IMG/VR virus record: IMGVR_UViG_3300044616_000756
Span: 1-32,625 of that record
Direction: 5' to 3' (one strand)
Source: a virus
Length of the DNA stretch: 32,625 bases
In this document: in pieces, positions 28,361 to 32,410 of the stretch
How the letters are laid out: every line of letters begins with the position of its first letter
Numbering within the stretch: the stretch's first letter is position 1
The notes under the pieces: model-generated
Seen by the model: the letters and a program-made list of their open reading frames with translations, nothing else
The model's database searches: none
What the model was told of the DNA's origin: nothing
Made by a program: the position numbers and the translations under genes

Positions 28361-28494
28361 TTGTTATCCTTTCGCGTGTAGCCGATGGCGATCAACACAA
28401 TCCCGACAATCCCGACGATAGACGCGGGGTGGACGAGGTACGCCGCCAACAATAACATCGCGAATCCCGCCAGTTCCAACACGTTCGACATCAT
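28357..28494 (-). CDS. Membrane microprotein between terminase and portal (45 aa)
   Basis: The ATG at 28494 overlaps the large terminase stop (ATGA) and the stop overlaps the portal GTG. The protein has two hydrophobic helices (NVLELAGFAMLLLAAYLV, SIVGIVGIVLIAIGY) and a basic end (TRKDNK). Its overlaps leave no room for anything else here. The function is unknown. Confidence 0.72.
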   Translation of the reverse strand: MMSNVLELAGFAMLLLAAYLVHPASIVGIVGIVLIAIGYTRKDNK

Positions 28495-30020
28495 AGGGCG
28501 ATGAACTCCACACTCCGAGCGGGCTTGTCCGCTTCGCCCGCATAGTACCGCGCCCGATCAAAAGCCATCACCATCGCAACCGCGAGGTCGATCTTGCGGG
28601 GACTCCCGCGGTGTTCCTTGACGATGCGTGGCCCGAACCGGTCGATCTTCACGGCGGAGTTTGTGAGGTGGCGGGTAAGCGCGGCGGATAGGTGCGGGAT
28701 GCCGCCCCAATGGATTTGATCCTGGGACACGGCTTCGGCCACCTTCTGGCACGCGCTCACCATGCGGACGGGTGATTGGGCGTAGTTCACCACCCGACCG
28801 GCGAACGGGCCTTCGCGGTCCAACGCTTCCAACGAACGGGACCATCGGAACGGGTCCGCCGATAGTTCAAGCACGTTCAACCCACGGACTTCCACGAGGT
28901 CGCGGAGATCCTGTTCTACTTGGCCGATGTCGACTTGCCAATGGGGATCATCCAATGGGCGTTCATAGAGGAGCAACGGCTCGACGAATCCGTCCAACGT
29001 ACACGCCACGGCCGCGCTCGCGTCCAACTGGAATGAGCCGTCCCAAGCCACCACGCACGGCTCCCCTGGTTGGATTCGCCGGTCGGACTCCAACCGTTCC
29101 CACGCCCCGTTCGGGAGCCATTGGGAGGTCGTCGAGACCCACCGGTTCAACCGCTTCGTCTGGAACTCCACGGGTGAGATCGATCGCGCGGCGGCTTCGA
29201 AGTCTTCGGGATCAAGGAAGTCGCCGAATGCGGGGTTGGCCATCTTCCAGGCTTCGGCCGAATCCCACGCGATGGATTCGGGCGCGTGAAAGTATCGGAA
29301 GAAGAACGCATCATCAACGACTTCGCCGGACTGGATTCGCGTCCCGTATTGCCAGAGCCGAAAACAAATCGAATCTTGCCCACGGGAATCCGTCTTCGAA
29401 CCCGCCGTTGAGATGGCCAACACGAGCGGGTTCCGTCGGGTTCCCGATCCTAGGTTCACGGCGGACCATAGACGGTCGTCTGGTTGGACGTGGAGTTCGT
29501 CGAAGATCACCATCGACGGGTTCGTTCCTTCGGCCCGTGATCCGTCGGACGATAGGACGCGAAGCACGGAACCGGTGTCGGGGTATTCAATCACGTCCCG
29601 CATGACGCGGAGTTTCTTCGACAACACGGGATCCAGTTCCACCATGCGCGCGCATTCGCGGAACACGATCCGCGCTTGTTGCCGGTCGCCCGCGCAAATC
29701 AACACCTCGGCCCCCACCTCCTGGAACAATCCGAACAGGGCGATCCCGGACGCGAGCGTGGACTTGCCGTTTTTTCGTGGGAGTAGAAGTAGGCCGCGCC
29801 GGTTCTTCCGCCTACCGTCTGGCCGCACCTCGAACAGTCCGTCCAAGATCTCGCGTTGCCAGGGTCGGAGCGCGATGAGTTGTCCCGCCTCGTCGCCTTT
29901 CGACGATCGACAGAACGTCTCGATGAACTCCGCGACGAATGGCCCGTCTGTCCTAGGCGCGGCGGGTCGCGCGGATGATCGCGTCGAGTTTCGCGGTTGC
30001 CGAGTTCGCTTGTTCGCCAA
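28491..30020 (-). CDS. Large terminase subunit (509 aa)
   Basis: The ATPase part has LRPWQREI, Walker A PRKNGKST (81-88), Walker B SMVIFDELH (Asp174, Glu175) and motif III LAISTAGS. The nuclease part has AWDGSFQLDASA, LELSADPFRW and the late IDLAVAMVMAFDRA. This is a Terminase_1-type TerL that cuts and pumps DNA into the prohead. The ATG at 30020 overlaps the small-subunit gene by 68 bp; no later start fits better. Confidence 0.93.
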   Translation of the reverse strand: MANKRTRQPRNSTRSSARPAAPRTDGPFVAEFIETFCRSSKGDEAGQLIALRPWQREILDGLFEVRPDGRRKNRRGLLLLPRKNGKSTLASGIALFGLFQEVGAEVLICAGDRQQARIVFRECARMVELDPVLSKKLRVMRDVIEYPDTGSVLRVLSSDGSRAEGTNPSMVIFDELHVQPDDRLWSAVNLGSGTRRNPLVLAISTAGSKTDSRGQDSICFRLWQYGTRIQSGEVVDDAFFFRYFHAPESIAWDSAEAWKMANPAFGDFLDPEDFEAAARSISPVEFQTKRLNRWVSTTSQWLPNGAWERLESDRRIQPGEPCVVAWDGSFQLDASAAVACTLDGFVEPLLLYERPLDDPHWQVDIGQVEQDLRDLVEVRGLNVLELSADPFRWSRSLEALDREGPFAGRVVNYAQSPVRMVSACQKVAEAVSQDQIHWGGIPHLSAALTRHLTNSAVKIDRFGPRIVKEHRGSPRKIDLAVAMVMAFDRARYYAGEADKPARSVEFIAL

Positions 30021-30438
30021 TCTCCGACCTCAATCCAACTCTGGCCGCGGGCGTTAGTCCCAACTCCCGCGCGTACTTTTTCACCGCGTCCGCATTATCG
30101 CGGACGATTTGGTGGAGCGGGTTCTTGACGAAGTTCCCGTCCCGCCCTTTTAGGAGCGGCCCCGTCTTCGACAGCATCGCCTCCGCCTCCTGGTATCGAA
30201 CGAACGCTTCCGAGTATAGGCGGAGGAGATCTTTGTCCGCGGATGTGAGGACACCGGTCGGACCCAGGGCGGCGACGACGCGTTCCCAGACTTCGCGCGC
30301 TTCTGGCCGTAAGTCCGCGGGCGGCGTGAGCGGCCCACCGGCGGGGATAGGTTCGGCGTAGTTCACCACGGACGGCCGCGTCTCGCCCGCCAGAAGGCGG
30401 AGGCGGGTTGGCTTCGGTGCGGGTCCACGGGTTCCCAT
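29953..30438 (-). CDS. Small terminase subunit, P27 family (161 aa)
   Basis: The protein begins MGTRGPAPKPTRLRLLAGETRPS and continues PPADLRPEAREVWERVVAALGP, TSADKDLLRLYSEAFVRYQEAEAML and NPLHQIVRDNADAVKKYARELGLTPAAR. These are the standard blocks of P27-type small terminases in GC-rich siphophages. It recognises the packaging site. Only a weak ribosome site is seen; the gene follows the GP88-like gene by 9 bp. Confidence 0.92.
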   Translation of the reverse strand: MGTRGPAPKPTRLRLLAGETRPSVVNYAEPIPAGGPLTPPADLRPEAREVWERVVAALGPTGVLTSADKDLLRLYSEAFVRYQEAEAMLSKTGPLLKGRDGNFVKNPLHQIVRDNADAVKKYARELGLTPAARVGLRSEIGEQANSATAKLDAIIRATRRA

Positions 30439-30447
30439 TGGGTGATT

Positions 30448-31131
30448 CTAGATCCGCGCTCGTTGCAAATCCCCGAACGTCGCCGTGCCTTGCTTCTTTT
30501 TGAAGTGCGGGATGTTGTTGGCCACGATCCCAATCCGATTCGTTGGGGCCGTGATCGCGAGGATGTCCGATGCCGATTGATCGAAGTATCCCGCCGCGTC
30601 GAGCGCGGCTTTCGTGGGGAAGACCTCCGCGTGCCGGTCGCGTTCCACATCGATCAAGTGGTCTTCTTTCCCGCCCATCGAATAAAGCCAACGGAAGTTG
30701 TCTGGGGCGTGGCCTTCGACTAGGCGTTTGAACATCGACACTTCTTTGGTGTAGGCGTAGAAGACGACCGCCGGGTGATTGGCCGCGATTCGCAACCAGG
30801 CCAACAGATAATCGGCGGTGAAGAAGTCCCCCGAATCGTGGATTCGAACGTACGATCCCGGCTTGATGTAGCGGGTGATCTCATCGTTCATCGCCTGTTC
30901 CCATTCGTCGGGTGTATCAATGACGAGTTTGAGATTGCGGGCGTGGGCCGCCTTGACGTTCTTGAACCGGAACGTCCCGCTTCGGGCGTAGCATAGGGCC
31001 GCGCACGCGCCCGCCTGGGGACACGTGTGAATCGTTCGGCCGTCGTCTAACTTCGCACCCAGGGCCGGAAGCGTCCAGTTCCACGCGCCCACCTCGCGGA
31101 GTTCACGGTTCTGTCGCAACAGTCGCGTCAT
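30448..31131 (-). CDS. GP88-like three-cysteine protein, putative Fe-S enzyme (227 aa)
   Basis: A GGAGG site precedes the ATG at 31131. The only cysteines are Cys37, Cys43 and Cys47 (HTCPQAGACAALCYARSG), a C-x5-C-x3-C cluster. Then follow AAHARNLKLVIDT, YVRIHDSGDFFTADYLLAW, AVVFYAYTKEVSMF and ILAITAPTNRIGIVANN. This matches my memory of the mycobacteriophage gene-88 family. A three-Cys cluster before barrel-like strands recalls radical-SAM enzymes. It directly follows a Mom-like gene, so it could supply or tune the base modification. That link is an inference. Confidence 0.78.
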   Translation of the reverse strand: MTRLLRQNRELREVGAWNWTLPALGAKLDDGRTIHTCPQAGACAALCYARSGTFRFKNVKAAHARNLKLVIDTPDEWEQAMNDEITRYIKPGSYVRIHDSGDFFTADYLLAWLRIAANHPAVVFYAYTKEVSMFKRLVEGHAPDNFRWLYSMGGKEDHLIDVERDRHAEVFPTKAALDAAGYFDQSASDILAITAPTNRIGIVANNIPHFKKKQGTATFGDLQRARI

Positions 31132-31203
31132 GTGTGCCTCCTATTGGAGCGCGCGGATTGCATCACAGCATCCTCTCCCCGATGGAATCGGGTCGCATCG
31201 TTC

Positions 31204-31848
31204 CTATGCTTCGCGCGCTCGTGCGTTGGATTGTACCGCCGCGGGGTACGGTTGAGCAAGCGGCGTGATTTGTTCGCGCATCGCGTCATCCAGGGGCATC
31301 AAATAGCGGTGCTTCCCCGCCTTGATCACGGCCGTCGCGGTAGGCGAAAAGAACTTCTGCACCGCTTCCAGGGAGTTGGAGCAACCCTTTTGGACGACGC
31401 TTCGCGGATGCCAAATCCGTCCGTTGATCTTGTAATACCGCGCGTCGCCCATCGTGCCGGTGTAGATCCAACCGCCCGCTTTATAGATCCCGCCCGAATG
31501 CCCTTCGCTCGGATCGGCGAATGAGACGACTAGCCGAAGCCCTGGGAATGCTTTCCGCAACATCCGAAGCGCGATCGCGATCACCCGCGACACCGGCGTT
31601 CGGTGGGTCGTCATCGACACGCGAACCAGTTCGCACCCTTCAAACTGTCCTAGGCCATAGGGCTTCAATAGGTTCGGGGTTGCACCACCACCGAAGATCA
31701 CCGTCCCGACAAACTTGTCGTCTTCCCACACGCCGAACGTGACGAGTTTGAACGTGGGCATTTGGCGGGAATAGTGCCACTTCTCGACGGCGTACTTCGC
31801 GGCTTCGCGCGAACAGTAATCGACCCGAAGGCTAGGCCCGCCATTCAT
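31204..31848 (-). CDS. mom: Mom-like DNA adenine hypermodification protein (214 aa)
   Basis: The ATG at 31848 lies inside the end of the ParB-like gene (17-bp overlap). Hallmarks are REAAKYAVEKWHYSRQMP, FGVWEDDKFVGTVIFGGGA, GCELVRVSMTTHRTPVSR, LRLVVSFADPSEGHSGGIYKAGGWIYTG. These define the GNAT-fold Mom family, whose Mu member converts adenine to an N6-carbamoylmethyl form that resists many restriction enzymes. The C-terminal 60 residues carry a basic stretch and a PLDDAMREQI end. It probably protects the phage DNA before packaging. Confidence 0.85.
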   Translation of the reverse strand: MNGGPSLRVDYCSREAAKYAVEKWHYSRQMPTFKLVTFGVWEDDKFVGTVIFGGGATPNLLKPYGLGQFEGCELVRVSMTTHRTPVSRVIAIALRMLRKAFPGLRLVVSFADPSEGHSGGIYKAGGWIYTGTMGDARYYKINGRIWHPRSVVQKGCSNSLEAVQKFFSPTATAVIKAGKHRYLMPLDDAMREQITPLAQPYPAAVQSNARAREA

Positions 31849-32410
31849 AGCCGCACCCCGGACACTTGATCGCGTTCTTCTGGTCGAGTTTGGACTGTTG
31901 ATCAAGCGTGGACGTGCCGAACTCTGGGGCTTCCGCACCGGTCGCGCGCGCTAGGTTCGACAACAGTTCCGCGACCTCATTCGATGACGGGGTGATCTCC
32001 GCGAGCAACTCGCCCAGGCGCGTCGGATCGGCGAACGCTAGATCGCCGAGCGGATCGTAGGTGGCCAGAACAACGCGCTCCTCGTCTTCGGATAAATCAA
32101 CGTAGGACACGGGGATCTTCGATTCGTTCCGCGTCATTGCCAGTTCGACCCGAAGGTGGCCGTCGATCAATCGGCCCGTTCGTTGATTCACGATCACCGG
32201 TGCGACGAATCCAACCTCATCTAGGACAGCGGCCAACGCTTCCCGTTGGGCGGCGGGGTGACCGCGCCAGTTGGCGGGGTTCGCGAGCAACTGGTCGGGC
32301 GACTCTTCACCCGCGCCAATGATGCGCGACCGGAACGCCCCTAGTTGTCCTCCAACAATGCTCATGCGCGGATGATAACTCATCCCGTGGGCCGTGCCAA
32401 TCGGGGGCAT
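31832..32410 (-). CDS. ParB/sulfiredoxin-fold nuclease-like protein with CxxC end (192 aa)
   Basis: The ATG at 32410 overlaps the previous stop (TAATG); internal ATGs, for example at 32365 (MSIVGGQLG), are alternatives. The ParB core is LLANPANWRGHP, REALAAVLDEVGFVAPVIVN, GRLIDGHLRVELA, IPVSYVDLSEDEERVVLATYD. The C-terminal part is helical and ends with CPGCGYEW. Phage ParB-like proteins are often nucleases or NTP-binding proteins. The overlap with the Mom-like gene suggests joint action. Confidence 0.85.
   Translation of the reverse strand: MPPIGTAHGMSYHPRMSIVGGQLGAFRSRIIGAGEESPDQLLANPANWRGHPAAQREALAAVLDEVGFVAPVIVNQRTGRLIDGHLRVELAMTRNESKIPVSYVDLSEDEERVVLATYDPLGDLAFADPTRLGELLAEITPSSNEVAELLSNLARATGAEAPEFGTSTLDQQSKLDQKNAIKCPGCGYEWRA

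Follow-up and report, generated by a model that had tools for sequence, protein, structure and literature searches.

In this phage, the gene for a Mom-family DNA modification enzyme is followed by a gene for a small tRNA-Gly-like RNA, and more than 100 phage contigs carry such an RNA together with Mom. We put at roughly three in four the probability that it is a non-decoding tRNA dedicated to supplying Mom with a glycyl group, its charging and its role as donor being suggested by what is conserved in it. Only a shade less confidently, we think it probable that Mom is an aminoacyl-tRNA:DNA transferase fed by this private glycine tRNA, the donor being the aminoacyl-tRNA itself. The Mom enzyme family is already known; what appears to be new is its RNA partner.

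The window, i.e. the whole stretch of DNA that was analysed, comprises positions 1 to 32,625 of IMGVR_UViG_3300044616_000756. All features described here lie on its minus strand. An earlier, sequence-only reading had placed a ParB-like, a Mom-like and a GP88-like gene one after the other directly ahead of the small terminase gene, with the first overlapping the second. Both the positions and the overlap were borne out. The mom start codon, an ATG at 31846-31848, lies inside the end of the ParB-like gene (31832-32365, 177 aa), and Mom is therefore encoded by 31204-31848 (214 aa). Further downstream are the gene for a GP88 family protein (30448-31131, 227 aa; PF17338, E 4e-52), a neighbour that we place outside the Mom module, and, as context, those for the small (TerS, 29953-30438; PF05119, E 3.9e-21) and large (TerL, 28491-30020; PF03354, E 3.7e-24, and PF20441) terminase subunits. 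What the earlier reading missed is a tRNA-like RNA gene between, and partly inside, its three genes. This Mom-linked gene occupies 31148-31218, and a CCA is encoded 3' of its discriminator base, at 31145-31147 (sequence ...GCGCGCTCCA).

The assignment of the enzyme is secure. The window Mom matches PF25680 with 159.3 bits against a cut-off of 27.1 (E 1.3e-46) and the PHROG 'Mom-like DNA modification protein' with an E of 8e-55, and it is 27% identical to Mu Mom. Its predicted structure (pLDDT 94.4) superimposes on Mu Mom (8BV8) with a Z of 19.9 and a TM of 0.72 over 184 residues (rmsd 3.3; Foldseek E 8e-13), and we are confident from this model that it has the GNAT fold of Mu Mom. Residue S87 stands opposite S124 of Mu, altered in the inactive mutant S124A, in the profile alignment to 8BV8 and by BLAST to Mu. 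The structural matches are dominated by Mu Mom itself and CoA-dependent GNATs. Fem enzymes also have a GNAT-like fold and use aminoacyl-tRNA as substrate; no such aminoacyl-tRNA transferases are found among the matches, an absence that is uninformative. The product known for Mom, from Mu, is adenine whose N6 bears CH2-CO-NH2, that is, N6-carbamoylmethyl (glycinamide) adenine. An acyl-CoA donor such as glycyl-CoA has been suggested for the enzyme (PMC7824862).

The ParB-like protein is recognized by PHROG 620 (E 2e-18) and in Pfam and NCBIfam nothing passes the cut-off for it. ParB genes lie directly upstream of mom, or overlap it, in unrelated phages, and most Mom relatives in viral contigs have a ParB-like gene directly upstream. 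Across 68 diverse ParB-Mom loci, the long open reading frame that comes first downstream encodes TerL in about 57, according to Pfam and with the agreement of PHROGs, a count that spans four Pfam terminase groups, assumed to be disjoint. Hence the ParB-Mom cassette recurs in phages of quite different kinds, each time before the genes for packaging. The pair is thus a real module that is found again and again, most often immediately before the terminase. The ParBs that adjoin Mom share a conserved C-terminal tail, ...DQGxLDxK...CPxCGHEF, the window protein ending in DQ-x-x-LDQK...CPGCGYEW; its CxxC knuckle, conserved in the Mom-adjacent ParBs, is encoded by 31832-31880.

The first 15 bases of the window RNA overlap the last four codons and the stop codon of mom. 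It has a seven-bp acceptor stem, a D arm, a UCC anticodon, a six-bp T stem with an A.A mismatch, and U73. It keeps U33, and its T arm is abnormal, the T stem departing from the common form partly through compensatory changes. A covariance model (R1) built from 38 elements of other phages, none of them from the window's lineage, finds it in what amounts to a held-out test with 52.1 bits (E 3.2e-11), the second-best match in the window scoring 12.2 bits. R1 also finds the RNA in every relative tested from the window's lineage. The minimum free energy fold is a cloverleaf of -29.3 kcal/mol; its folding z of -1.8 is unremarkable, which counts against the donor reading. ARAGORN reports no tRNA in the window, and around mom Rfam returns only a sub-threshold snoRNA match that overlaps the element.

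Several lines of search tie the RNA to Mom. A tRNA-Gly stands right after mom in annotated regions of Microbacterium phage Appa and Salinibacter phage B2_17, ARAGORN finds one adjoining mom in several contigs, and a simple cloverleaf scan places a similar element at the 3' end of mom in most ParB-Mom loci, including that of the window. A motif-first search of viral contigs with the T-arm sequence GGGCGGTKYRAYTCCGACC alone gave at least 120 matches. Among the 120 matches listed, 106 directly follow a Mom gene and share its strand, and in 115 all seven pairs of the acceptor stem are perfect. Most of the remaining listed matches abut the end of a contig, adjoin divergent Mom-like GNATs, or are partial relics. 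The divergent GNATs suggest that the RNA serves a wider group of enzymes than PF25680 Mom. A stricter motif, searched across 84,980 genomes of bacteria and archaea, yielded 14 matches, of which 13 are in a tRNA-like context (one of these cut by a contig end) and one is a chance match inside an apparent coding sequence. Mom is close by in nine, and L265 has a Mom fragment at the contig end.

Conversely, when the search starts from Mom, R1 scores in all 28 ParB-Mom loci tested and in all six from named phages, a few of them on contigs that also served to train R1. The model finds no match in the whole records of eight phages with a ParB-less Mom, Mu included. Nor is there a credible match in 475 kb of loci that have GP88 and lack Mom, or any match in the sister phages whose Mom has been replaced by a TAGT glycosyltransferase. 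A sister phage without GP88 keeps the RNA (see below). In short, the RNA goes missing together with Mom, and not together with GP88.

Some variations on this arrangement deserve mention. Intact RNA elements stand beside divergent Mom-like GNATs at L221:1-1193, L225:2748-3587 and L246:618-1277. At L112:449-1689 there are two mom genes in tandem, with a single RNA element after the second. Psychrobacter phage vB_PmaS_Y8A (L129) has tandem tRNA-Gly-like elements (2117-2181 and 2189-2254) after mom and before the terminase genes, both without a normal D arm. The Microbacterium phages Appa (L122:4657-4728) and Antuna (L135:2157-2228) carry, just after mom and antisense to it (minus strand in both), a near-canonical tRNA-Gly(CCC), as if it were an independent solution to the same need. 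Partial relics are found in L188 near 558, after a C5 cytosine methyltransferase gene, and in L203 near 11814, without Mom; both are just upstream of terminase-like genes and look like scars of cassette exchange. A crude detector based on the acceptor stem alone gave a likely false positive in L130, where the covariance model has no match, and overlooked the canonical tRNAs that run antisense. We relied on the covariance model in its place.

The RNA is a conserved, tRNA-shaped gene, and this is supported by covariation. In 38 aligned elements 98.4% of the pair cells are paired, against 77.3% after shuffling, and the covariation score is 0.599 against 0.164. For 99 model-aligned elements, an alignment that was fitted to the structure, the corresponding values are 98.8% against 74.0% and 0.618 against 0.150. 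Conservation of individual bases is uneven. G1C2G3, C70G71C72 and U73 are constant in all 96 distinct elements; pairs 4-7 of the acceptor stem are free to change, and their changes compensate each other. Among the 83 seven-base anticodon loops, C35C36 is invariant and position 34 is free (U in 38, A in 34, C in 8 and G in 3). We take the constant bases to be those by which bacterial glycyl-tRNA synthetase identifies its tRNA. With six pair positions in the T stem, of which one is mismatched, the acceptor-T helix has 13 layers, as in bacterial tRNA-Sec. The only weak Rfam match, for one copy, is to tRNA-Sec. At gathering thresholds, Rfam 15 has no match in the nine loci tested.

The same uneven conservation bears on whether the element acts in cis, as a part of the mom mRNA that mimics tRNA-Gly and controls translation, 3' processing or stability, or plays perhaps a Com-like role, and is not a glycine donor. 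The RNA does overlap or directly follow the mom reading frame, and in many loci a long mom frame runs through it. In Mu, mom translation is controlled by Com, according to annotation, and no Com was seen ahead of mom in loci of the ParB type. However, a role in structure alone would not freeze pairs 1-3, U73 and C35C36 while leaving pairs 4-7 to vary. Nor does a cis element readily account for the tandem pair in L129 or for L115, L258 and L268, in which the RNA is upstream of Mom. We consider this explanation unlikely, albeit the one that survives best after the glycyl donor.

An ordinary tRNA-Gly, next to mom by chance or supplementing the decoding of GGN codons, seems quite improbable to us. 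Phages often carry tRNAs, and ARAGORN calls a tRNA-Gly in a few copies (Appa, Sicarius2, L101 and L106-L108). Some copies, from Arthrobacter phages, Appa and Antuna, look closer to canonical tRNA-Gly, and those of Appa and Antuna are antisense; both points count against the donor reading. On the other hand, glycine is the only identity seen (83/83), the linkage to Mom is fixed, and most copies are missed by both Rfam and ARAGORN. Features required for decoding are relaxed or lost: U33 is present in 30 and absent from 53 of the 83 seven-base loops, and 34 of the 83 have the anticodon ACC, which is not a normal bacterial glycine anticodon. The T and D loops are off consensus, position T55 often being G and the D loop often lacking GG, and 26 copies are without a D stem. 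To judge by these features, the RNA looks unfit for protein synthesis.

The sequence-only reading had proposed instead a hypermodification module of three members, in which GP88, through a radical-SAM-like cysteine cluster, supplies the chemistry missing from Mom. Of this proposal, ParB and Mom stand, as a recurrent unit next to at least four TerL families; GP88 does not belong to it. In the window's own phage lineage (L002-L011) the order is ParB-Mom-GP88-TerS wherever the contig reaches. GP88 is, however, absent from every unrelated ParB-Mom locus examined, and among the Mom relatives in viral contigs none outside this lineage has it, so that a survey of co-occurrence joins ParB to Mom and leaves GP88 aside. 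A natural experiment is provided by the sister phage L088, whose TerS, TerL and ParB are 99%, 95% and 91% identical to those of the window. It has kept ParB and Mom, and GP88 is missing: DNA similarity to the window stops just 3' of the RNA gene and restarts at TerS. Conversely, more distant sisters (L012-L017, TerS about 82% identical) have kept GP88 and TerS, as well as ParB where the contig reaches, and where readable their mom slot is occupied by the TAGT glycosyltransferase (PF20691, 1.8e-47), accompanied in L015 by a sugar epimerase. Since the distributions of GP88 and Mom differ and L088 has one without the other, ParB-Mom is the module and GP88 a separable neighbour. We judge GP88 to be a separate passenger gene, outside the Mom module.

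The slot between ParB and GP88 (L012:2826-3755; L015:2164-3965) is an exchangeable DNA-modification slot, filled by either mom or TAGT. GP88 also occurs without Mom in dozens of other phages, many times beside a metallophosphoesterase-like gene; repeatedly, in unrelated phages, it lies directly 3' of that gene (several of L018-L052, and L082). At L070:3273-3983 an N6/N4 DNA methyltransferase gene is directly 5' of the GP88 gene, with a ParB_N gene nearby.

The cysteine cluster of GP88 is real: C37-x5-C43-x3-C47 is invariant in 40 aligned relatives, the radical-SAM norm being CX3CX2C or a variant. In the AlphaFold model (pLDDT 91.9) strands and helices alternate, and the three cysteines are in a loop after an early strand of the putative barrel. 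Support from the fold is weaker. Radical-SAM enzymes lead the VIA-align list (spore photoproduct lyase, SuiB, lipoyl synthase and ChlB at the top), with a best Z of 6.5, which is too low to be trusted, and Foldseek against the PDB gives nothing significant (E >= 0.08). A profile search of solved structures found nothing convincing. The model does match a viral Gp37/Gp68-like one in structural comparison (E 2.5e-7), a kinship that we suspect from this single viral match, and nothing in the window matches DUF5131 (PF07505). A radical-SAM-like fold is plausible for GP88. That it supplies the missing Mom step is the least probable of the explanations considered, given its absence from unrelated ParB-Mom loci and L088, its retention elsewhere without Mom, and the lack of a GP88 neighbour in the Mu region examined. 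The missing donor of Mom is more plausibly a charged tRNA than GP88 chemistry.

We propose the following scheme for the glycyl donor. The cassette would consist of the ParB-like protein, Mom and the dedicated tRNA-Gly-like RNA, placed before the terminase. Host glycyl-tRNA synthetase would charge the RNA, and the odd T arm and elbow would keep the charged form off EF-Tu and the ribosome. From the charged tRNA, Mom might then pass the glycyl group on to the N6 position of an adenine in the phage DNA. The amine of this group would next attack C6 via a five-membered ring, with expulsion of the original nitrogen as the amide, to yield N6-carbamoylmethyl-adenine. Donation of a glycyl group thus fits the glycinamide product known for Mom. 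The ParB-like protein may bind DNA and recruit Mom, and late modification, beside the packaging genes, could protect the outgoing DNA from restriction. Mu Mom works without such an RNA, which counts against the scheme, and host Gly-tRNA or another donor would have to serve there.

Comparison with known systems shows both shared and distinct features. Mu Mom, encoded in the com-mom operon, shares with the window enzyme its family, its fold and the region of the catalytic serine, and Mu mom is a late gene annotated as acting just prior to packaging. Unlike the window, Mu has Com, no ParB beside mom, and no RNA element anywhere in its record. In Arthrobacter and Microbacterium phages the ParB-Mom pairs show the same gene order, usually with overlap, and the RNA adjoins mom. 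Records of these actinobacteriophages pass over the link between mom and the tRNA-Gly-like gene without comment, and the tRNA of Zartrosa and Sicarius2 is unannotated in the stretches examined. Nor did we find a report of a tRNA beside mom in the literature searched, from which subscription journals, bioRxiv and the 8BV8 paper were excluded.

Staphylococcus aureus has special tRNA-Gly species with weak EF-Tu binding that are thought to feed the Fem enzymes (PMC4052509). These non-proteinogenic tRNAs are alike in their altered T arm and D loop and in serving transferases outside translation. However, the acceptor of the Fem system is a peptidoglycan precursor, and the one proposed here is DNA adenine. 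The phage CmoX/CmoY system for cytosine (PMC12783734) is also a DNA hypermodification ending in glycine, with ParB-domain neighbours, but the glycine is ligated with ATP to carboxymethylcytosine and no tRNA donor is involved.

The route by which Mom makes its modified adenine, and the donor that it uses, are not fully understood, as the sequence-only reading had pointed out. With a conserved glycine tRNA linked to mom, one particular donor suggests itself, and the question can be put to purified components. Transfer from an aminoacyl-tRNA would also account for the unusual glycinamide in Mu, host Gly-tRNA being the donor in that case. If the reading is right, it defines a family of RNAs that numbers at least 100. 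We know of no other DNA modification that draws on charged tRNA; this one, if true, would be the first, and phages would have gained a route to decorate their DNA with amino acids.
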